This document shows, piece after piece, positions 34,379-46,200 of a DNA stretch of 64,000 nt. How positions within the stretch are numbered: the stretch's first letter is position 1; each line of letters opens with the position of its first letter. A model generated the notes under the pieces. That model had not been told where the DNA came from, did no database searches, and was given only the letters and a program-made list of their open reading frames with translations. The position numbers and the translations under genes are program-made. This DNA is from Desulfonatronovibrio magnus (GTDB lineage Bacteria; Desulfobacterota; Desulfovibrionia; Desulfovibrionales; Desulfonatronovibrionaceae): positions 1 to 64,000 of the forward strand of contig NZ_JYNP01000018.1 of assembly GCF_000934755.1 (NCBI RefSeq). Reading direction: 5' to 3'.

Positions 34379-35761
34379 TTAATATAATATATCCCTTTTA
34401 AGATCTATACCATATTTTCTCATTCTGTTCAAAACAGTCACTCTATTGATACCAAGAATCCTGGCAGCCTGGGATTTGTTTCCCTTACTCTGTCTCAAGG
34501 CCTCAATAAGCTCATTTTTCTGATCCTTTTGGCCAGGGTTACCAGGACAGGATCCTGAAGCCTGAGGTACAAAGCTGCAGGTCAGATTATCAGGAAGATG
34601 CTCAGGCTTGATCAGATCCGAATCAGCAATCACAAAACTATACTCCAAAGCACTTTTAAGCTCCCGGATATTTCCCGGCCAGGAATAATCCATAAAAATT
34701 TTCATGGCCTGAGGACTGAGTCCCCTGACTTTATGCTTATTGTTGACAGACAGTCTTTTCATGAAGAAGTCCACCAAATGCGGAATATCCTCTTTGCGCT
34801 CCCTGAGTGCAGGCAAATGAATGGGTATGACATTAATGCGGTAAAAAAGATCTTCTCGAAATTCAGCCTGACCAATGAGAGTGGGCAGGTACTTGTTGGT
34901 GGCGGTAATAAAGCGTACATCCACGGAAATGGACCTGCTTTCTCCAACCCGCTCAAAAGTCTTGTTTTCCAGGACTCTTAAAAGTTTAACCTGTACCGGC
35001 ATGGGCAGATCCCCTATCTCGTCCAGAAAAATGTCACCTTTATGTGCAATTTCAAATCTGCCTTTACGATGTTGGACCGCCCCTGTAAAAGCTCCCTTAA
35101 CATGCCCAAAAAGCTCACTTTCCAGAAGTGATTCGCTGAGTGCTGCGCAATTGACCTGAACATATGGCTGCTCAGACCTGGGACCCAATTCATGAATTGC
35201 TCTGGCCACAAGTTCTTTGCCTGTTCCTGATTCACCACAGATAAATACCGGAAAATCACTTTGGGCTGCTTTTTCAATAAGATTAAAAATCTTTTTCATG
35301 CTGTCGGAGTACCCTACCATGCCATGAAAAACTGTGTCCTGGTCCAGCATCCGTGAAAGCTGCTGCACTTTGGTGTCCAGGATGTCCAGTTCAGAAATAT
35401 CGGTCATGATCTCCACTGATCCCAGGGCATTGGAGTCATCATCGTACAAAATGCTGGCTGTTTTAAGAACAGTTACATAAGAACCGTCCTTGCGCATGAT
35501 GTGGCACTTTCTCTTGATGATCTTTTTTTTCTCAAACAACTTGCACCATGCCCCACTTTCAGTATCCATAAGAAGCGTGCAAGCATCACACCTGAATATG
35601 GTACATGGCTTGTCAATCAATTCTTCTCTCTTATATCCCGTAATCTGCTCCAGTGCCTTATTGACCATCTGAATGGTTCCATCCTCTGCAACCACCAGCA
35701 GCCCCTCATGCATAATTTCAACAATATCCTTACAATATAAATTAAAACTCACAGGCTTCAA
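34379..35761 (-). CDS. Sigma54-dependent PAS/AAA+/Fis transcriptional activator
   Basis: A 460-residue regulator: PAS domain (about 10-130, with a Cys-rich insert CTIFRCDACTLLMDTESGAWC in parts), AAA+ domain with Walker A GESGTGKE, the sigma54-contacting GAFTGA loop, Walker B GDIFLDEIGDLP, and a C-terminal Fis helix-turn-helix (NKSQAARILGINRVTVLNRM). The PAS cysteines could bind a metal or sense redox state, by analogy. It probably activates genes with -24/-12 promoters; its tight link to the SLC13 permease suggests uptake control. Confidence 0.93.
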   Translation of the reverse strand: MKPVSFNLYCKDIVEIMHEGLLVVAEDGTIQMVNKALEQITGYKREELIDKPCTIFRCDACTLLMDTESGAWCKLFEKKKIIKRKCHIMRKDGSYVTVLKTASILYDDDSNALGSVEIMTDISELDILDTKVQQLSRMLDQDTVFHGMVGYSDSMKKIFNLIEKAAQSDFPVFICGESGTGKELVARAIHELGPRSEQPYVQVNCAALSESLLESELFGHVKGAFTGAVQHRKGRFEIAHKGDIFLDEIGDLPMPVQVKLLRVLENKTFERVGESRSISVDVRFITATNKYLPTLIGQAEFREDLFYRINVIPIHLPALRERKEDIPHLVDFFMKRLSVNNKHKVRGLSPQAMKIFMDYSWPGNIRELKSALEYSFVIADSDLIKPEHLPDNLTCSFVPQASGSCPGNPGQKDQKNELIEALRQSKGNKSQAARILGINRVTVLNRMRKYGIDLKRDILY

Positions 35762-36481: not shown

Positions 36482-37058
36482 CAATAAATATGTGAAAAAG
36501 TACACATTGCCTTCACATATTTTTTTAAAAAAATCATTATATTTAACAGTTTGCCTTTTAACCTGTAACTTAGTCAATGGCTGTTCATCATGATCTGTAT
36601 GAAACATAATTTTTTTGCAATTAAACCCTTGGATGTGGCACAGGGACTGGAACTTACGGGATCCACTTGCCTCATAAATAAAACGTTTAAAACATCGGTT
36701 ATAGTTCAAGCTGGTCCGGGAATGCCTGCCCCATGCTTTACTGAAAAAAAGCTAAACTATTACAGTTTTTAACTTGACAATAAGCATTTCATAAGAAAAA
36801 CATTTACTTATAAAAATTTTAGACCAGGTTCCTGCACAGACTCGATCTTTTCCTGTATAAATTGGTGCATCACCTCAATTCAGCGTTAAAATGGAAAACG
36901 CGGGCTGCTGATTTCTAAAACAGGCAAGAAGCCAAATCCGAAATTAAGATCCGGTAAGATTTCAAATTTTTTATTTAAAGGCAGAAACCCGCTGGTTTGG
37001 TCCAAAACCCCCAGCTTGGAACTTTTCTAAATTGAACAACTTTATCAGGAGGTATGTA

Positions 37059-37406
37059 ATGAGAAAGATGGTCGCTTTATCTATTGTAGCAATTATGTTT
37101 GCAACCCAGATTGGGATAGCACTCGCAGCCATGGACGGCAACCCCAGAAAAGGAAGATTTCTTTTCAGGCAGGAATGTAGACCCTGTCATATGGAAAACC
37201 CCATTCATGAACAGCAGGAGTATCATGCCCATTATCTTGGACCTGATGCAAAGCGCCAGGCCGAGTGGATGGAGGTACTTGAAAACATTGATGAACTGCC
37301 CTGTTTCGAACACTGGAAAGAAATCTCTGATTCTGACATCAATGACATTTTCACCTACCTGTACAATGGTGCTGCAGACTCTCCTACTCCTGAAAGATGC
37401 GGCTAA
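37059..37406 (+). CDS. Exported monoheme cytochrome c
   Basis: 115 residues from the ATG at 37059, which follows AGGAGG; the in-frame TTG at 37032 is less likely. A Sec signal peptide (MRKMVALSIVAIMFATQIGIALA in two parts) is followed by one heme-binding motif, CRPCH, at about residue 39. A His/Gln-rich stretch follows, and a cytochrome-c-like EISDSDINDIFTYLYNGA near the end. It is the first gene before the molybdenum oxidoreductase (80-base gap), so it probably carries electrons to or from that enzyme in the periplasm. Confidence 0.88.
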   Translation: MRKMVALSIVAIMFATQIGIALAAMDGNPRKGRFLFRQECRPCHMENPIHEQQEYHAHYLGPDAKRQAEWMEVLENIDELPCFEHWKEISDSDINDIFTYLYNGAADSPTPERCG

Positions 37407-37485: not shown

Positions 37486-39687
37486 ATGAAGGACAAGTTG
37501 CCCCCCTTAAGCCGAAGAAAATTTCTCAAAACCAGCCTTGCTGCTGCAGCTGTCACTGCAGGAGCGGGTACTCCCTTAGTCAAATCCCTTGTACCTGGAG
37601 CTCACGCTTCAGGGTCCAGGCCACCAAAAGGAGATCTTACTTCTCACTTTACTGCCTGCGACATGTGCTTCAACAGATGCGGCATGATCGCCCGAGTGCG
37701 CAACGGCGTAATTGAAAAAATCGATCCTAACCCGAAATTTCTAAAATCAAGAGGCATGATCTGTGCCAGAGGCAATGCTGCCACCAACCATATTTATGAT
37801 CCAGACAGACTGAAATATCCTTTAAGAAGAACAGGTAAACGTGGAGAAGGAAAATGGGAGCGAATCAGCTGGGAAGAAGCCTTAGACTATACAGCTGAAA
37901 AAATGCTGGAAATTGGCGAGAAGTACACCCGATGCGGAATGATGTTTATTCCCGGTTCTGACATGCAGTCCCAGTTAGTGCATAGATTTGCCGAAGTATA
38001 TGGTTCATTCAACATCACCTCACATGAAACCCTTTGCCTGCTCAGTAAAAACAGAGCTTACTTGGATACCATCGGGGAAGTGCCCTACCCAGACGTTTTT
38101 TACAGTAAATATATCCTTATTGCTGGAGCCAATCCTTTTGAAGCCATTATCACTCCAGACACCATGGATTTTTTTGAAGCCCGTAAAAACGGCTGTAAAA
38201 TTATTGTTCTTGACCCAAGATTCACCAAAACCGCGGCCATGGCAGACGAGTGGTACCAGATCAAGCCTGGTACAGATATGGCTTTTTTCCTGGCCCTTTG
38301 CCACGTCATTGTCAAAGAAGAGCTTTACGACCGTGATGGCTGCTGTCCTAAAATGACATACGGCTTTGATGAGTTTTTCCTGCACATTCAACAGTACACA
38401 CCTGAATGGGCTCAGGAGGAATGCGGCATTCCATCTGAAGACATTATCAGAATAGCGAGAGAAATAAGTGCTGCTGCACCATCTGCCATGGTTTACCCTG
38501 GTAGACGCACATCTGATTATAAGGATTCCACCCAGATAAGAAGGGCCATGGCTATAACCAATGCCCTTCTGAACAACTTTGACAAGCCGGGCGGCCTGCT
38601 GGCCCTGCGCGAAGTGGGAGTGAAAACACCATATTATGATGTCCCGTGGTATGACGACAACCCTTTTGACCGGGTTGAAGCTGGACTGGTCCCGGGATTG
38701 ATAGATCATGAAGGCTCATTTCAGCTCATGCGCGAAGCAATTATTTCCGGAGAGCCATATCCCATCAAGGGCTGGTTCAATTTTAAGACCAACTTCATGC
38801 AGACAGCGGCCAACAGAAACAAGACACTGGAAATGATTGATCACTTGGACTTCATAGTTAATATTGATATCGCCATGACAGATACAGCCTGGTACTCTGA
38901 TGTGGTTCTGCCTGGAGCCAGTTTTCTGGAAAGAAAGGACCCTGTTTCCGCGCTGCAGGGTTCATCAGCATGCGCCTGTGCAGTACTTAGAGATCCTGTA
39001 GTTCCGGAAATGTTTGAGTCCAGATCTCCTTTCTGGATTTGCCAGGAACTGTCAAAAAGAATGGGCTTTGGTGATTCTTTTGACTTTACAATGGATGAAT
39101 ACAGGCAAAAACAGCTTGATGGACTGGACGGGGCTTTGGAAGCCATGCTTAATGATGGTGTTTACTACAACCCCAGCCAGGTGTACGGTATATACTCTGG
39201 ATCTCCTCTTAAAACACTTAGCGGGGTCAAGGAAATATTCAACCAGCGTTATGCCAGATCCGGCGTAGATCCCATGCCAGTTTACCGAAAAAGAAGAATG
39301 CCGGGCGAAAATGAATTCAGGCTGGTTGTGGGTAGAACAGCCTTTTTCACTCACAGCAATACCAATCTTGAACTTCTTACCGAGTTCATGGAAGAGAACG
39401 TTCTGAATATGCACCCTGAACCAGCGCAAAATATGGGACTCAAAGACGGTGATCTGGTGGAAGTGAAAAGCCAGGTCGGTTCCGGCAGACTGCGTCTGGA
39501 GCTGACTCAGGGCATTGAAAAACAGACTGTTTACATGGCCACCGGATTCGGCGCCCTTTCACCCCAGATGAGTCTTGTTCACAACAGAGGAGCCAGTATT
39601 GCAGAAGTTCTTGAGGATTACCATGATGAAATTTCCGGAAACATGGCCATGCATGAAACCCTTGTAACCGTAAGGAAGGTGGCCTGA
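37486..39687 (+). CDS. Tat-exported molybdopterin oxidoreductase (PsrA/PhsA type), catalytic subunit
   Basis: This 733-residue protein has a twin-arginine signal (SRRKFLKTS, with an Ala-rich h-region and cleavage near AHA-SGS). The [4Fe-4S] ligands are C58, C61, C65 and C93 (CDMCFNRCG and ICARG). The Mo/W-bisPGD domain has HETLCLLSKN with a likely Cys metal ligand near C184. A dinucleotide-binding domain (RLVVGRTAFFTHSNT onward) ends the protein. The Cys ligand and subunit partners place it with polysulfide/thiosulfate reductases (PsrA, PhsA) rather than formate dehydrogenase. The substrate is inferred from the rhodaneses downstream. GGAG precedes the ATG. Confidence 0.88.
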   Translation: MKDKLPPLSRRKFLKTSLAAAAVTAGAGTPLVKSLVPGAHASGSRPPKGDLTSHFTACDMCFNRCGMIARVRNGVIEKIDPNPKFLKSRGMICARGNAATNHIYDPDRLKYPLRRTGKRGEGKWERISWEEALDYTAEKMLEIGEKYTRCGMMFIPGSDMQSQLVHRFAEVYGSFNITSHETLCLLSKNRAYLDTIGEVPYPDVFYSKYILIAGANPFEAIITPDTMDFFEARKNGCKIIVLDPRFTKTAAMADEWYQIKPGTDMAFFLALCHVIVKEELYDRDGCCPKMTYGFDEFFLHIQQYTPEWAQEECGIPSEDIIRIAREISAAAPSAMVYPGRRTSDYKDSTQIRRAMAITNALLNNFDKPGGLLALREVGVKTPYYDVPWYDDNPFDRVEAGLVPGLIDHEGSFQLMREAIISGEPYPIKGWFNFKTNFMQTAANRNKTLEMIDHLDFIVNIDIAMTDTAWYSDVVLPGASFLERKDPVSALQGSSACACAVLRDPVVPEMFESRSPFWICQELSKRMGFGDSFDFTMDEYRQKQLDGLDGALEAMLNDGVYYNPSQVYGIYSGSPLKTLSGVKEIFNQRYARSGVDPMPVYRKRRMPGENEFRLVVGRTAFFTHSNTNLELLTEFMEENVLNMHPEPAQNMGLKDGDLVEVKSQVGSGRLRLELTQGIEKQTVYMATGFGALSPQMSLVHNRGASIAEVLEDYHDEISGNMAMHETLVTVRKVA

Positions 39688-40427
39688 TGAAGAAAAAATA
39701 CTGTATGGTCATTGATTCTTCGGTGTGCATTGACTGCAAGGCCTGCATGGTTTCGTGCAAGGTTCAGCACAAGGTTCCCCGAGGTTTCTGGCGTAACTGG
39801 ATTAAAAACTCAGACCCTGACTTTACCCTTGGAAAATATACTTCCATGCACTTTCAGCCTGGTGGATGCATGCAGTGTGACAATCCTACCTGCGTGTATG
39901 CCTGTCCTAGCGGAGCCACCTTCAAGGACGATGAAACCGGTATTATCCATGTCAATGAGGATTTGTGCATAGGATGCGGTAATTGTGTCAAGGCCTGTCC
40001 ATATCATGCCAGGTACAGGCATCCTGTTAAACGTGTTCCGGACAAGTGCGACTTCTGCCGGGAACGATTGGACATGGGACTTCTACCTGCATGCGTGGAC
40101 ACTTGCCCTACCAAAGCCAGAAATTTTGGTGACAGAAATGATCCTGACAGCGACGTTTCAAGACTTTTAAGAGAACAGGAAACTGTGCGCATTGTCAGCA
40201 GACCTGTAGATACCGAACCAAATATGTTTTACCTGTCTTCCACCATGCCCATGGACTGGCCGGGTCCTGTGGAATATCCTGCAGCTCATCAGGCCATGGT
40301 AGGCGTGGTCAACCCACTGGTAAAAGTAGCTGTTGGACTGTCAGGCCTGGGTGTGGCAGCCATGTTCCTGAAGCAGCTTTTTACAAGTGATGAAGCCTCC
40401 CATGAGGAAAAAAAGGAGGAGGTTTAG
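39687..40427 (+). CDS. Four-cluster ferredoxin subunit with C-terminal membrane anchor
   Basis: This 246-residue PsrB/PhsB/FdnH-like protein overlaps the catalytic gene by one base. Cys motifs CIDCKACMVSC, CMQCDNPTCVYACP, CIGCGNCVKACP and CDFCRERL...CVDTCP give ligands for four [4Fe-4S] clusters. Residues about 207-231 form one hydrophobic helix (KVAVGLSGLGVAAMFL), as in formate dehydrogenase-N beta. It links the molybdenum subunit to the membrane cytochrome. Confidence 0.92.
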   Translation: MKKKYCMVIDSSVCIDCKACMVSCKVQHKVPRGFWRNWIKNSDPDFTLGKYTSMHFQPGGCMQCDNPTCVYACPSGATFKDDETGIIHVNEDLCIGCGNCVKACPYHARYRHPVKRVPDKCDFCRERLDMGLLPACVDTCPTKARNFGDRNDPDSDVSRLLREQETVRIVSRPVDTEPNMFYLSSTMPMDWPGPVEYPAAHQAMVGVVNPLVKVAVGLSGLGVAAMFLKQLFTSDEASHEEKKEEV

Positions 40428-40428
40428 T

Positions 40429-41139
40429 ATGAGTGAAAAAATGATCCACCGACATGACAAGGCCGCCATCTTCATCCATTGGTTCAATGCGTTATGCTGG
40501 ATTTTTCTGACTCTCACAGGACTTGGGCTAATTAAAAATGATCAGATCAATCCCATAGGTGCGTGGTGGCCCAGCCTCATGCGATCTATATTCGGCAGCG
40601 GCGAAATGCTATTGAATTTCCACATTTATGTAGGCCTGACCTGGGCTGTAGTCTTTATTCTGTACATTATTTTCAGATTCAAAGACAGTATGGGCTTTTT
40701 AAAGGAATCATTTTCAATTAATCCTGCCAGAGACATGTCCTGGATGATTAAAAAGAATGTTCAACTCACCCTGGGTGATAAGGCCCTGACCAAAATGGGC
40801 ATGGGGACCGATATTCCTCCACAGGGTTTTTACAATGCCGGTCAGAAACTGTTTGCCCAGCTCACTGTTGTTGCCGGGTTAATCCTGGCTGTCACCGGGG
40901 TAATCATGTATCTGTCCACTATGATTCTTAACAATCCGACTCCTGTGGCCTGGTCCAGGACTATACACTTCCTCATGGCAGGTCTGGCCTTTGCCGGACT
41001 CCTGGTTCACATTTACATGGCTGCCATTTCAAGGGAAGAAAGGCCTGCCTTTAAATCCATGTTTTCAGGGTCAGTGCCTGAATCTTATGCCAGGCATCAT
41101 CATGAGCTGTGGTATGACGAAGTAAAAGACAAACCTTAG
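40429..41139 (+). CDS. Cytochrome b subunit of the molybdoenzyme (FdnI/PhsC-like)
   Basis: 236 residues from the ATG at 40429, which follows AAGGAGGAGG; an upstream in-frame ATG overlaps the ferredoxin gene. Four transmembrane helices carry heme-b ligand histidines: FIHWFNALCWIF, LLNFHIYVGLTW, and the last helices with RTIHFLMAGLAF and LVHIYMAA. It would exchange electrons with menaquinone. A terminator follows directly, so the core operon is cytochrome c, catalytic subunit, ferredoxin, cytochrome b. Confidence 0.9.
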   Translation: MSEKMIHRHDKAAIFIHWFNALCWIFLTLTGLGLIKNDQINPIGAWWPSLMRSIFGSGEMLLNFHIYVGLTWAVVFILYIIFRFKDSMGFLKESFSINPARDMSWMIKKNVQLTLGDKALTKMGMGTDIPPQGFYNAGQKLFAQLTVVAGLILAVTGVIMYLSTMILNNPTPVAWSRTIHFLMAGLAFAGLLVHIYMAAISREERPAFKSMFSGSVPESYARHHHELWYDEVKDKP

Positions 41140-41177: not shown

Positions 41178-41343
41178 GAAATTACGATTAAGTTACCGAT
41201 AAAAAGAGTAGTTATTAATCTGCTTTTACAGCTCAGTCTCTTTCCTTGTAGCAAAGCAGAAAATAAACCAGGAACATGTCCGAACAAGATGGCTAAACCA
41301 TTACTTTTTTTAATAACACCCTATAGCTTAAGGAGGTAGCCTT

Positions 41344-42261
41344 ATGAACTCTCAATGGAAAACCATACGAAACTTATTCATTGTATTAGGGATTTCCGTT
41401 TTATTTCTGACCGGCTGTGTAACAAAGGAAGCACCCAAAGCAGCTTATGACCCGGGTCGCATTCCAACTGTAGATGTAGAGTTTGATCCTGCTCAAGTGC
41501 CCAACCCTTTTCATACCATTGTGGGTATTGATTTTGTGAAACCTTTTGTCTGTGACAACCTTTTAAGAATTGAACCCAGAGAAGATGTGGTTCTTATTGA
41601 TTCAAGGCCCAAACGCCCACGCTATGACCGTGGCCATATACCAACTGCCATCAGCATGCCTGACAGCCAGTTCGACGAACTCATACACAAACTGCCTGCT
41701 GATAAGTCGGCCCTTTTAATCTTTCACTGCCAGAACTTTGCCTGACCTCTGAGTCACAACTCCGCCTGGAAGGCGGAAGAACTGGGTTACACCAATGTTG
41801 TTGTCTACGCAGCCGGTAATGTGGAGTGGGACAGCAGATACATTTCATGGACCCTCGAAGACATCACTGAAACCCCCGCAGTAGAGAAGGCAGATGAGCC
41901 TGTTGCTGCAGCACCGGTCTCAGAAATTAAGCAAGGTCCATTTGAAGGATCAGTTGACACAGACTTTTTTATAGAACTGATGACCACCAATCCACACAGT
42001 ATCCAGCTCATTGATGTCCGTTCTCAGCAGGAATTCGGTGCTGGACACATTCCATCATCCATCAATATGACAGTGGACCAGCTTGAAGCCAATATTAATA
42101 CCTTTACCGATGAAAAACCAATAATCTTTATCTGCTCCACCGGTGCCAGAAGTGGCGAAGCATTTTACATGTTTATGGACATGCGCCCTGACCTGACCAG
42201 TGTTTATTATATTGATGCAGAAGTGTCCTATGCTCCGGATGGAAGCTTCACCATAGAATAA
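41344..42261 (+). CDS. Selenocysteine-containing tandem rhodanese lipoprotein
   Basis: One continuous frame interrupted only by TGA at 41743-41745 (codon 134); with UGA read as Sec it is 305 residues. AAGGAGG precedes the ATG. The N-terminus is a lipoprotein signal with lipobox LTGC. Rhodanese domain 1 (about 65-160) has DSRPKRPRYDRGHIP, then FHCQNFA-U-PLSHNSAWKAEELGYTNV in parts: Sec sits at the catalytic Cys position, five residues after a Cys. Domain 2 (about 200-300) has DVRSQQEFGAGHIP and catalytic Cys in FICSTGARSGEA. Homology on both sides of the TGA shows it is not a true stop. It is likely a periplasmic sulfane-sulfur carrier. Confidence 0.88.
41761..41777 (+). promoter_or_regulatory. 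SECIS-like hairpin for the first Sec rhodanese
   Basis: TCCGCC and GGCGGA form a perfect 6-base stem around loop TGGAA. The loop begins 21 bases after the TGA and has G at its second position. Bacterial SECIS elements are small stem-loops about 16-37 bases after UGA with a G in the first two loop positions, so this fits the model for SelB recruitment. Confidence 0.75.
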
Positions 42262-42429: not shown

Positions 42430-42927
42430 ATGAAAAGAGCCAAAAAAAATTTATTCCCGCTTTTTTTAATCATATCCATCAGCCTGCTTATCTTAAGCCA
42501 CCCTGTAAATGCTGAAAGAACTGCTGGCTGGTGGGACCACGCCCAGAGTGTTGCTCAGCGCGAAGGATACAAAGTAATCACTACCAGCGAACTAAAGCAA
42601 CTCTATCAGGAAGAACAGGATTTCATCATACTTGACAACCGATATACTTACGAACTGAGTAGCGGTTTTCTTCCGGGTGCAATAAATGTCACCTTTGATC
42701 TTTCTCATTTGCAGTCACTTCCTAATGAAAAACGTGCTGAGCTCACGGATGCTTTAGGTGAAGATAAAGACATGACCATAGTAACCTATTGTAGAGATTT
42801 CAGGTGAATCTTAAGCGGCATCGCCGCCAAATGGGCCGTGCGCCTTGGCTATACCGATGTTTACCGATACACTGCTGGAATGGCTGCCTGGACAGAACAC
42901 TATCCTGATGACCTTGAAGGAAGATAA
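42430..42927 (+). CDS. Selenocysteine-containing single-domain exported rhodanese
   Basis: The frame is open except for TGA at 42805-42807 (codon 126); with UGA as Sec it is 165 residues, ending at TAA 42925-42927. A Sec signal peptide (hydrophobic LFPLFLIISISLLIL, cleavage near VNA-ERT) leads to one rhodanese domain: DNRYTYELSSGFLPGAINV, then TYCRDFR-U-ILSGIAAKWAVRLGYTDVYRYTAGMAAW in parts. Sec replaces the catalytic Cys, with the same C-x4-U spacing as in the gene before. Family homology runs unbroken through the TGA. It probably handles persulfide in the periplasm alongside the molybdoenzyme. Confidence 0.87.
42826..42849 (+). promoter_or_regulatory. SECIS-like hairpin for the second Sec rhodanese
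   Basis: GCCAA (42826-42830) pairs with TTGGC (42845-42849) and GGC (42834-42836) with GCC (42842-42844), with a 3-base bulge and loop CGTGC. The loop begins 29 bases after the TGA and has G at position two, fitting the bacterial SECIS model. A competing hairpin (GCGGC/GCCGC at 42815-42827) lies closer to the TGA. Confidence 0.55.
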
Positions 42928-42931
42928 TCCG

Positions 42932-43094
42932 GAAGCATTATGCGTTTCTGTAAAAGTCCAATAAAGACAGTCCCCCGCCGGGCTGTAAGCCTCCAGGCAG
43001 GAAGCCGTGTCAAGCCTTAATAAACCACTTTTACCTTCAAAATCGCTATGACAAACAGCTCATATTTTAAATTTTCAGAAACGCATAATACTTC
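42932..43094. mobile_element. MITE-like element, second copy, overlapping a chaperone start
   Basis: GAAGCATTATGCGTTTCTG (42932-42950) and its inverted copy (43076-43094; one mismatch) bound a 163-base element with the same interior as 26734-26916 (CAGTCCCCCGCCGGGCTGTAAG, GGAAGCCGTG, AATAAACCACTTTTA). It starts 5 bases after the second rhodanese stop, and its right end contains the only good start codon (43048) of the TorD-like gene. Confidence 0.7.
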
Positions 43095-43740
43095 TTCTAA
43101 GCTTCAATATCAGAACCTGTCCACTGAGAGACAGCAAATATTCAAGGACGCGTTAAGACTTTTGATTCATATCTTCTGGAGTAAAGACGGTAAAAAAGAC
43201 TGGGTTGAGCTGATAGACTGGTCTAAGTCAATCTGGATGTCATTGCACAGGACTCCAGAATTTGAGCTTGATCAAACTCTACAAACCATCAACATTCTCT
43301 TATCAGACCTTTCCCATGATGACCTGCAAATAGAACTGGAAAGCGAATTTGTACGCATATTTATCAACACCAGAGGAGGTGTGACTGCGTCTTTGTATCA
43401 CTCATTTTATTATGACGAACAGCATCTGCTTATGAACGAGCCTGCAGCTGAAATGACCCGCCTGCTGGAAGATATCGGGATGGACACCAAGTCGGGCATG
43501 GGTGAACCTCCTGACCATCTTTGCATTGAACTTGAATACCTGCTGTTTCTGCTGGAACACATTGAGCCAGACCCTGACCCGGATCTGATCAAGCATATTC
43601 AGGTGTTTGCTTCTGAATTCATGCTCCCATGGATCTCAAAATTTCAAAAAAGCATTCCCAATTACATGCCTGCCTCTTTTTTTTGCCAGACAGCCCAGAC
43701 CATGAAACAACTGCTCATTATTATTGGAAAGATTGATTAA
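43048..43740 (+). CDS. TorD/DmsD-type molybdoenzyme chaperone
   Basis: A 230-residue all-helical protein with TorD-family marks: a conserved LESEFVRIFINTRGGV and, later, GEPPDHLCIELEYLLFLLE (EPxDH motif). Such chaperones bind Tat signal peptides and aid molybdenum cofactor insertion, so its client is probably the Tat-exported molybdoenzyme at 37.5 kb. The ATG at 43048 lies inside a MITE-like element and has no clear ribosome binding site; the first 15-16 residues are repeat-derived. No other ATG, GTG or TTG occurs before the conserved part. Confidence 0.85.
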   Translation: MTNSSYFKFSETHNTSSKLQYQNLSTERQQIFKDALRLLIHIFWSKDGKKDWVELIDWSKSIWMSLHRTPEFELDQTLQTINILLSDLSHDDLQIELESEFVRIFINTRGGVTASLYHSFYYDEQHLLMNEPAAEMTRLLEDIGMDTKSGMGEPPDHLCIELEYLLFLLEHIEPDPDPDLIKHIQVFASEFMLPWISKFQKSIPNYMPASFFCQTAQTMKQLLIIIGKID

Positions 43741-44126: not shown

Positions 44127-45086
44127 ATGAATGCCAAAAAACTGTCCAGAAGGCACTTTCTGAGCTTCACTGCAGCGGGGGTAGCCGGTATGATCCTGCC
44201 TGGAACTTTAGAAGCTGCTCAAAGAGGACACACCATTGCCACAATGCTGGATATTGAATCCTGCATCAACTGTCGTGAATGCGTTAAAGCATGTAAAGAA
44301 GCAAACAGCAGTAAATTCCCAAACCCGGAGAAGCCCTACCCGGAAATGTTTCCATCCCGGGTGCCGGTTGAAGACTGGTCAGACAAACAGGATGTAAGCA
44401 ATCGACTGACTCCTTACAACTGGCTCTATATTCAAACATCTAAGGGAACGTACAATGGCCGGAATTTTGAGATTCACATTCCCAGGAGATGTCTGCACTG
44501 CCAGAACCCTCCATGCGCCAATTTGTGTCCCTGGGGAGCAGCAGTACGGGAAGTCAGTGGAACAGTCAGAATTAACGACAGGATCTGCCTTGGTGGAGGA
44601 AAGTGTAAAGACGTTTGCCCATGGTTGATCCCGCAACGCCAGACTGGTGTAGGTCTGTATCTTGATCTCATGCCAAGATTTGCCGGCAACGGCGTCATGT
44701 ACAAATGCGACCGCTGTTACCAGAAACTGGCAGAAGGGGAACTGCCTGCCTGCATAGAAGCGTGCCCCATGCAGCTGCAGACCATTGGTCCCAGGGACAA
44801 AATACTGGCTCAGGCCAGAGAGTTGGCTGATGATATTCAAGGATACATATATGGTGACCAGGAAAACGGCGGAACCAATACTTTTTATGTTTCACCAGTT
44901 CCTTTCAATGTTTTAAATGAAAACATAACTACCGGGCCAGGTAAGCCCCATCTTAAACCTGTTGAAAACACCATGAGCAAGTCGGAATATCTTACTGCAG
45001 CCCTGGTTGGTGCGCCTCTGGCCGGTCTTGCTGCTGGCCTGCTGAGTCATAAAGCTGATAAAGATGCAAAAATAGATACGGAGTAA
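44127..45086 (+). CDS. Tat-exported four-cluster ferredoxin subunit
   Basis: 319 residues, beginning with a twin-arginine signal (LSRRHFLSFTAAGVAGM). Cys motifs CINCRECVKAC, CLHCQNPPCANLCP, CLGGGKCKDVCP and CDRCYQKL...CIEACP supply four [4Fe-4S] clusters; the third has an extra glycine (C-x4-C). The C-terminus has a hydrophobic helix (YLTAALVGAPLAGLAAGLL). It is a DmsB/HybA/NrfC-like electron carrier facing the periplasm. It pairs with the next gene (2-base gap) but has no catalytic subunit beside it. Confidence 0.9.
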   Translation: MNAKKLSRRHFLSFTAAGVAGMILPGTLEAAQRGHTIATMLDIESCINCRECVKACKEANSSKFPNPEKPYPEMFPSRVPVEDWSDKQDVSNRLTPYNWLYIQTSKGTYNGRNFEIHIPRRCLHCQNPPCANLCPWGAAVREVSGTVRINDRICLGGGKCKDVCPWLIPQRQTGVGLYLDLMPRFAGNGVMYKCDRCYQKLAEGELPACIEACPMQLQTIGPRDKILAQARELADDIQGYIYGDQENGGTNTFYVSPVPFNVLNENITTGPGKPHLKPVENTMSKSEYLTAALVGAPLAGLAAGLLSHKADKDAKIDTE

Positions 45087-45852: not shown

Positions 45853-46200
45853 TAATGCGGGATGTGCCCACAACCCAATTTAAACAAGAATAGTTAAGTT
45901 TGGGCGATACCCTTACTTTTCAGGCTGAAGACTGAAGGTTGAAGGCTGAAGGCTGAAGGTTGAAGGCTGAAGGTTGAAGAATAAAGATCTTGGGCATCAT
46001 TGCTCTTTCAAGATTAAACATATTTCTAGGTATCTGTTTAGCGCTTTGCATGTGGCATGGCTTCCTGCCCGGAGGCATGCAGCCCGGAGGGGGACTGGCT
46101 CTTCCGGGGCCCACTTGTCCCAAAAATGAGTCATTTTGAGCACAAATTGATGCTCAAGTGGGTTACGGAGTACCTGTCCACTGCTTTCCTTAAAAGCTCC
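45853..46200 (+). repeat. Module D followed by an inverted GC-rich module
   Basis: 45853-46035 is the dispersed module D: GCGGGATGTGCCCACAACCC, AATTTAAACAAGAATAG, GGCTGAAGGTTGAAGG heptamers and CATCATTGCTCTTTCAAG. Positions 46060-46195 are the reverse complement of the stretch at 3765-3900, with CCCGGAGGCATGCAGCCCGG. Confidence 0.7.

Follow-up and report, generated by a model that had tools for sequence, protein, structure and literature searches.

The Psr operon of Desulfurivibrio dismutans is reported to encode a secreted lipoprotein with three rhodanese domains, RS06465, which is strongly upregulated in sulfur disproportionation (PMC12142623). An older model describes Sud of Wolinella succinogenes as a polysulfide carrier that presents polysulfide to PsrABC, and this description of Sud makes no mention of selenocysteine (Sec) (PMC2628731). 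In Desulfitobacterium hafniense, the gene set Dhaf_1508-1513 is induced about 40-fold by Fe(III) (PMC3306737), and the MOLY cluster (MolyA, MolyB and MolyC) is present in 90% of elemental-sulfur disproportionators (PMC12998232). Rhodanese-like selenoproteins are also known. Five forms have been described, the first of which (PF00581, WP_010941598.1) carries the motif UxxS, and TsoB (NF045694) is a selenoprotein resembling a rhodanese/DsbD fusion, with the motif UxxxxU (PMC13188914). The pathways of sulfur respiration and disproportionation have been called incomplete or unknown (PMC12998232, PMC8780430).

The 64,000-nucleotide stretch of Desulfonatronovibrio magnus DNA analysed here (the window) contains two adjacent genes, rhod1 and rhod2, each encoding an exported-looking rhodanese with an in-frame TGA and both located next to genes for a PhsA/PsrA-like molybdopterin oxidoreductase. 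The first-pass annotation of this DNA had described rhod1 and had missed both rhod2 and the molybdoenzyme operon. The following genes make up the cluster:

37032-37406, plus strand: c-type cytochrome gene (PF13442, 25.3 bits, under the cut-off of 27; synteny)
37486-39687, plus strand: PhsA/PsrA-like molybdopterin oxidoreductase (PhsA model, 496.8 bits, under the NCBIfam cut-off of 694)
39687-40427, plus strand: 4Fe-4S electron-transfer subunit (profile matches)
40387-41139, plus strand: cytochrome b561-type membrane subunit (PF01292, 86.8 bits)
41344-42261, plus strand: rhod1, exported-looking tandem rhodanese, 305 aa, with Sec134 (PF00581 in two stretches, 94.7 bits)
42430-42927, plus strand: rhod2, exported-looking single-domain rhodanese, 165 aa, with Sec126 (PF00581, 56.1 bits)
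43048-43740, plus strand: TorD-type chaperone (PF02613, 90.9 bits)

Both rhodaneses score above the PF00581 gathering threshold of 22.2, and rhod2 is the very next gene downstream of rhod1. The order of cytochrome c, molybdoenzyme, Fe-S, cytochrome b561, rhod1, rhod2 and chaperone genes is partly shared elsewhere, and this order and its conservation suggest that the window genes form one operon. PhsA is the family that the molybdoenzyme matches best, yet the score lies below the cut-off and the protein was not assigned to that family; its Tat signal match likewise falls just under the cut-off.

The comparative analysis recovered parts of this arrangement in other genomes. Among 14 stretches from 12 other rhod1-bearing genomes, the molybdoenzyme was detected in 10 (39-58% identity), cytochrome b561 in six and a distinct, adjacent rhod2 in five. 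In the named loci (the best 80 of 281), which include many short ones, the molybdoenzyme was present in 17, 13 of these with cytochrome b561 and 12 with rhod2. When only the 53 loci of this set with at least 4.5 kb of upstream sequence were considered, the molybdoenzyme was present in 13. Elsewhere, the rhodanese was found beside other electron-transfer or sulfur-transport genes. L087, for example, combines it with an NrfD-type subunit and a more distant molybdoenzyme, and in L088 it is next to a PF04143 sulfur transporter. The encoded carrier may thus not be specific to the molybdoenzyme.

Other features were recorded at and around these loci. In a Desulfobacterales sequence (L108:11059-13452), the place next to the Sec rhodanese is taken not by the molybdoenzyme but by a PF11783 cytochrome c and a cytochrome b561. 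Upstream of the window cluster, a sigma-54 regulator gene is encoded on the opposite strand (34379-35761), and similar genes lie near several related loci. A sigma-54 promoter for the cluster was rejected, with three one-mismatch matches against 3.87 expected by chance and none before the first cluster gene; one of the three (43847) is located 265 bases ahead of the gene at 44127. Short tandem repeats of the gaaggctgaaggttgaag type were seen by eye at 45920-45990 of the window, in the non-coding stretch after the cluster.

The reading frame of rhod1 contains a single in-frame TGA, within FHCQNFA-(TGA)-PLSHNSA, and is then open through a second rhodanese domain to a TAA codon, in agreement with the earlier description of a tandem rhodanese in which homology resumes in frame after the TGA. 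The sites on which the following sections rely are:

41331-41336, plus strand: AGGAGG, ribosome-binding-like, ahead of the rhod1 ATG (sequence)
41407-41418, plus strand: lipobox-like LTGC, rhod1 residues 22-25 (sequence, by eye)
41728-41730, plus strand: C129 (TGC), classical catalytic position of rhod1 domain 1 (alignments and model)
41743-41745, plus strand: TGA read as Sec134, second position of C-x4-U in rhod1 (in-frame; Cys/Sec exchange; family conservation)
42133-42135, plus strand: C264 (TGC), active-site Cys of rhod1 domain 2 (invariant in the 13- and 28-row alignments)
42790-42792, plus strand: C121, classical catalytic position of rhod2 (invariant in the 16-row alignment; model)
42805-42807, plus strand: TGA read as Sec126 of rhod2 (in-frame TGA; order-wide conservation)

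The AlphaFold2 model of rhod1 contains a helix at residues 4-23, and the LTGC motif at residues 22-25 is presumably a lipobox under the usual motif rule; rhod1 may hence be an exported lipoprotein. The loop of its second domain, CSTGARSGEA, is classical-looking. A close relative, L098, from a Desulfonatronovibrio MAG, shares 74% identity with rhod1.

Several lines of evidence bear on the decoding of the two TGA codons, which we regard with very high confidence as selenocysteine codons in both genes; in rhod1, the TGA is real and almost certainly read as Sec134. The genome that contains the window (4.81 Mb in 134 contigs, 97.5% complete) was searched for selA, selB, selC and selD, as had been proposed at first pass, and SelA (612.5 bits, cut-off 268), SelB (386.3 bits, cut-off 242), SelD (374 bits, cut-off 125) and tRNA-Sec (81.9 bits, gathering score 47) were all detected above their cut-offs, on contigs other than that of the window. 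The SelD gene (G000:C23:26094-27014) contains one internal TGA, so that SelD is itself probably a selenoprotein.

Named loci were collected by similarity, and a tblastn comparison of rhod1 with the best 80 of the 281 confirmed returned 34 in-alignment stops, all of them TGA. Of these, 31 map to column 134 and one to column 129; another falls in the corresponding motif of a neighbouring domain, and the last is a stray codon in L130. This stray in-frame TGA (L130:7150) is located in the linker before the first domain, in a context that is not Sec-like. For rhod2, all 27 in-alignment stops are TGA and map to column 126, with some of the sites lying within rhod1 domains that rhod2 also matches. 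The alignment with Cys-containing rhodaneses that the first-pass annotation had suggested revealed relatives with Cys at column 134. In the best alignment per locus, the motif reads C....C in 67, C....U in 12 and U....U in one of the rhod1 loci (best 80 of 281), and C....U in 14 and C....C in four of the 18 rhod2 alignments. Counts made on this basis understate Sec in multi-domain rhod1 proteins, and by whole proteins Sec is present in 17 of 79 rhod1 rows, the window included. Throughout the aligned domain, the two motif positions are occupied by Cys or Sec in every row (13/13 and 28/28 for rhod1, 16/16 for rhod2).

The same pattern was observed for rhod2 across the order. Among 120 genomes, 48 match rhod2 at 1e-15, and 28 matches reach at least 100 bits; exactly one TGA is present in 26 of these 28, six of them in single-contig genomes, and none in the other two (G365 and G213). 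Matches to rhod1 at 1e-25 were obtained in 34 of the 120 genomes. Within the family of the window, rhod1 is present in nine of the 18 genomes searched, its own included, and the best row contains a TGA in all nine, with two TGAs in G346; TGA-less extras in this family comprise a second rhod1 copy in one genome and a domain 2 fragment in another. None of the 25 matching genomes from other families of the order presents a TGA in rhod1. Nine of the 22 loci compared between the named set and the order and family genomes share sequence, and the two sets of counts are hence not additive. A quick tree of 79 rhod1 proteins, which excludes the L099 and L152 proteins (under 250 aa) and in which deep forks are weak, requires five changes between Sec and Cys, and starred branches force four of these.

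Codons located after the TGA appear to be under constraint, with less non-synonymous than synonymous change per site in all seven comparisons. With respect to L099, rhod1 codons 135-159 have accumulated six synonymous and no non-synonymous changes, and rhod2 codons 127-160 twelve and three; with respect to L098, the corresponding post-TGA values are 9.7 and 5.3 for rhod1, and 10 and 8 for rhod2. This constraint carries weight for rhod2 in particular, since the 39 codons that remain after its TGA would hardly constitute a gene alone. Use of TGA as a global sense codon was ruled out by the molybdoenzyme gene of the same cluster, which terminates at TGA. In the whole window, 18 open frames contain an internal TGA, and inspection by eye identified only the two rhodaneses as coding-like on both sides. 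Automated annotation readily breaks such genes in two at the TGA, and selenoproteins of this kind may hence be under-counted.

Putative SECIS elements were examined downstream of both codons:

41761-41777, plus strand: SECIS-like hairpin of rhod1, stem TCCGCC/GGCGGA, loop TGGAA (sequence; consensus and covariation over 26 sites)
42811-42848, plus strand: candidate SECIS region of rhod2, less certain, with alternative hairpins (folding)

The rhod1 hairpin, already noted at first pass, is present as described, with 21 bases between the TGA and the loop. To place it in context, the 45 bases 3' of each site were folded for the window and the best 80 of 281 loci, with sites located by motif pattern and duplicates removed. 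The mean folding energy is -16.4 at 40 Sec sites versus -10.8 at 126 Cys sites, and the mean z is -2.49 versus -1.26, these sites being related sequences rather than independent ones. A loop pattern defined ad hoc for this comparison, as distinct from a published SECIS predictor, was found at 39/40 Sec sites versus 36/126 Cys sites. The rhod1 and rhod2 labels in this set are loose, with five rhod2 sites labelled as rhod1, and L114, a known rhod2 Sec site missed by the motif pattern, is absent from both the folding set and the rhod2 consensus.

The 26 rhod1-type Sec sites have a stem in common that reaches seven pairs at most, of which five are retained throughout, and at four of the sites both sides of one stem pair differ, AU standing in place of CG. 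The second base of the loop is G in 26/26 sites and the loop contains GG in 24/26. The consensus from 14 rhod2 sites, with one three-pair and one four-pair helix, is weaker, and four Cys relatives of rhod2 fold as stably as its Sec sites and cannot be told apart from them by their hairpins, which makes the rhod2 element less secure. Searches with Rfam at gathering scores over the whole window returned a tRNA only. Overall, the Sec machinery, the Sec/Cys exchange at a single column, the covarying hairpin and the presence of TGA in all nine rhod1-bearing family genomes bear out the selenoprotein proposed for rhod1 at first pass.

The same cannot be said of the position originally assigned to Sec. 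The first-pass annotation had located the TGA exactly at the catalytic Cys, with Sec in its place. The strand-end Cys is what we take to be the usual catalytic position of rhodaneses, and in an alignment to solved rhodaneses it is C129 that falls on this residue, with U134 aligning to the second Cys of the CWGPAC motif of BH2092 from Bacillus halodurans (PDB 3nhv, 3o3w). BH2092 thus presents the same C-x4-C spacing as C129/U134, differing in its Cys at both places and its single domain. With Sec counted as Cys, no row of the 13- and 28-row rhod1 alignments departs from Cys at position 129 or at column 134, and column 129 contains Cys in all rows but one, which has Sec there.

The AlphaFold2 models (mean pLDDT 82.0 for rhod1 and 90.8 for rhod2) agree with this placement. 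In rhod1, C129 directly follows strand 124-128 and U134 lies in the loop before helix 136-146; in rhod2, C121 directly follows strand 116-120 and U126 lies in the loop before the next helix. Domain 1 of rhod1 superposes on BH2092 with Z 13.7 (rmsd 2.5, 106 residues) and on GlpE with Z 11.8 (rmsd 2.7, 105 residues). On these alignments and models, Sec is not at the classical catalytic Cys: C129 is retained, and it is the other Cys of an invariant C-x4-C motif that U134 stands in for. They point to the retained Cys as the usual persulfide-forming residue and to Sec as a second, nearby chalcogen. The relative L098 (L098:3096-4037) contains Sec at both positions (IFYUQNLAUPLSHNS), with the hairpin placed after the second TGA. 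If this reading is right, Sec134 marks a second residue of the active site that can be probed in C-x4-C rhodaneses, for which the natural Cys, Sec and double-Sec versions provide a ready comparative series.

The motif spacing is the same in both window proteins, C-QNFA-U-PLS in rhod1 and C-RDFR-U-ILS in rhod2. Longer relatives of rhod2 contain a C-terminal AhpC/TSA thioredoxin-like domain, identified in all five scanned (L077:9042-10157, L102, L103, L114 and L136), with two of the five under the Pfam cut-off, and CxxC is present in most long rows of the 16-row rhod2 alignment. This fusion is a pointer to redox recycling. No such domain is fused to the window rhod2, near which no reducing partner was identified either. 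Viral relatives, looked for with rhod2 only, yielded none that could be confirmed.

Computational evidence supports the decoding of TGA as Sec, the C-x4-U pair, the rhodanese fold and the gene cluster. The data are compatible with a role for rhod1 and rhod2 as cooperating exported selenoprotein carriers of sulfane sulfur beside the PhsA/PsrA-like molybdoenzyme, a role that we consider somewhat probable. Export, the substrate used, the sequence of steps and the hand-over to the reductase are predicted parts of this proposal, and persulfide handling by rhod1 is plausible. Rhodanese chemistry proceeds via a persulfide on the catalytic Cys. In the proposed mechanism, rhod1 and rhod2 would reside in the periplasm or attached to the membrane, where C129, or C121 in rhod2, would act like the catalytic Cys of ordinary rhodaneses and take sulfur from polysulfide or thiosulfate to give a persulfide. 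The selenol, located five residues on in the same active-site loop, would then attack this persulfide, and either pass the sulfur on towards the molybdoenzyme or allow the release of sulfide, leaving a Cys-S-Se-Sec bond that a partner would reduce. Such a two-chalcogen relay is suggested by the invariance of Cys or Sec at the second position, five residues after the first. A broader and decidedly tentative version of the proposal envisages a selenium-dependent module for polysulfide or thiosulfate respiration, in which Sec at the second (resolving) position would support a Cys-S-Se relay to a Psr-type molybdoenzyme, an arrangement that would be common in Desulfovibrionales for rhod2 and would have arisen several times in other Desulfobacterota for rhod1.

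The fusion of rhod2 relatives to an AhpC/TSA thioredoxin-like domain also accords with a different function, in which both proteins would be redox enzymes rather than carriers, their Cys-Sec couple reducing persulfides, polysulfides or peroxides with electrons from a thioredoxin-like partner or a cytochrome. The resemblance of C-x4-C/U to a redox couple, doubly Sec in L098 and in TsoB (UxxxxU, PMC13188914), agrees with such a function. The fold is nonetheless that of a plain rhodanese with Cys at the normal catalytic place, the cluster partners resemble reductases of sulfur compounds and the window rhod2 is devoid of the fused domain; we consider this function possible, if rather unlikely.

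A second alternative arises from D. hafniense, where a set with two rhodaneses and a TorD-like chaperone responds to Fe(III) with about 40-fold induction (PMC3306737), which argues against the sulfur-carrier reading. The cluster could then serve another acceptor, such as a metal or metalloid, and the role of the rhodaneses would be the upkeep or protection of the molybdoenzyme, or of its sulfur ligands, and not the supply of substrate to it. This appears improbable given that the molybdoenzyme has its best family match in PhsA, that the neighbours of rhod1 elsewhere include a sulfur transporter and a polysulfide reductase subunit of NrfD type, and that the D. dismutans precedent is upregulated with sulfur (PMC12142623).

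It is more improbable still that the two proteins handle selenium itself, in periplasmic selenite or selenide trafficking, and that Sec is a consequence. A rhodanese perselenide has been proposed as a selenium carrier, according to the title of a reference in PMC5877670, and a Geobacter cluster including the rhodanese ExtH affects selenite reduction through ExtI (PMC5877670); against this, the neighbours of rhod1 and rhod2 resemble sulfur-reductase genes and the sel genes lie on other contigs. Lastly, the notion that TGA is a true stop, in split or decaying genes or through assembly error, is scarcely credible, for although the molybdoenzyme gene ends at a genuine TGA stop and the code is hence not changed globally, the full Sec machinery, the recurrence of the same TGA across genomes (for rhod2, six single-contig ones among them), the restriction of in-alignment stops to TGA (best 80 of 281 loci) and the post-TGA constraint in 7/7 comparisons all argue against it.

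If sulfane sulfur is indeed carried by exported Sec rhodaneses, selenium would be an integral part of sulfur carriage during anaerobic sulfur respiration or disproportionation in many sulfate reducers. The individual elements are already in print: rhodanese selenoproteins are described in PMC13188914, and paired rhodaneses in a molybdoenzyme operon in PMC3306737, in whose account of that operon no Sec appears. PMC7463578 mentions tRNA-Sec and rhodaneses, in separate places, and neither rhodanese nor sulfurtransferase occurs as a term in PMC12013277. The literature searched, outside which lies the 2025 paper by Haft and Tolstoy that named TsoB, yielded no account of a molybdoenzyme operon with Sec rhodaneses. 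The Sec rhodanese pair in a molybdoenzyme operon is therefore a new combination of known elements, as far as this literature extends.

Among selenoproteins, the first rhodanese-like form resembles the window proteins by its rhodanese domain and its motif, UxxS corresponding to U-P-L-S in rhod1 and U-I-L-S in rhod2 (PMC13188914). Neither protein belongs to rhodanese_LYCAU (NF041203, motif CxU as opposed to C-x4-U in the window), with scores of 37.3 and 27.1 bits against a cut-off of 115, or to TsoB, with 45.2 bits for rhod1 and 100.9 for rhod2 against a cut-off of 805. The rhod2 match covers positions 9-152 of the TsoB profile, indicating a resemblance to its N-terminal part, and TsoB also shares with the window proteins the x4 spacing and, with rhod2 relatives, the fusion to a redox domain. 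It differs in being a longer, fused protein with Sec at both positions, whereas rhod1 and rhod2 keep Cys at the first (PMC13188914). TsoB-like genes with two TGAs (e.g. YUAGLTU) were observed in L069, L058, L072, L073 and L075, and in a number of phylum and order genomes, some of them with rhod2.

Among gene clusters, MOLY shares with the window an exported molybdoenzyme, a second subunit, a TorD-type chaperone and its occurrence in Desulfobacterota; likened here by description, it differs in that MolyA is set apart from membrane-anchored family members, whereas the window cluster includes cytochrome b561 and rhodaneses (PMC12998232). The Dhaf_1508-1513 set, likened by gene content alone, brings together a molybdopterin oxidoreductase, two rhodaneses, a 4Fe-4S protein, a polysulfide-reductase-type gene and a TorD-like chaperone; it differs in its induction by Fe(III), and the mentions of selenocysteine in that source concern other proteins (PMC3306737). 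Sud is likened by role, the older model assigning it the function proposed here (PMC2628731). RS06465 of D. dismutans is also an exported multi-rhodanese protein and predicted lipoprotein, encoded with a Psr-type molybdoenzyme in a soda-lake member of the Desulfobacterota, and has been proposed, like the proteins proposed here, to take up sulfur outside the cytoplasmic membrane (PMC12142623). The main text of that paper does not mention selenium or selenocysteine, and RS06465 comprises three domains versus two in rhod1. The rhod1/rhod2 pair most likely represents a Sec version of the D. dismutans triple-rhodanese lipoprotein.
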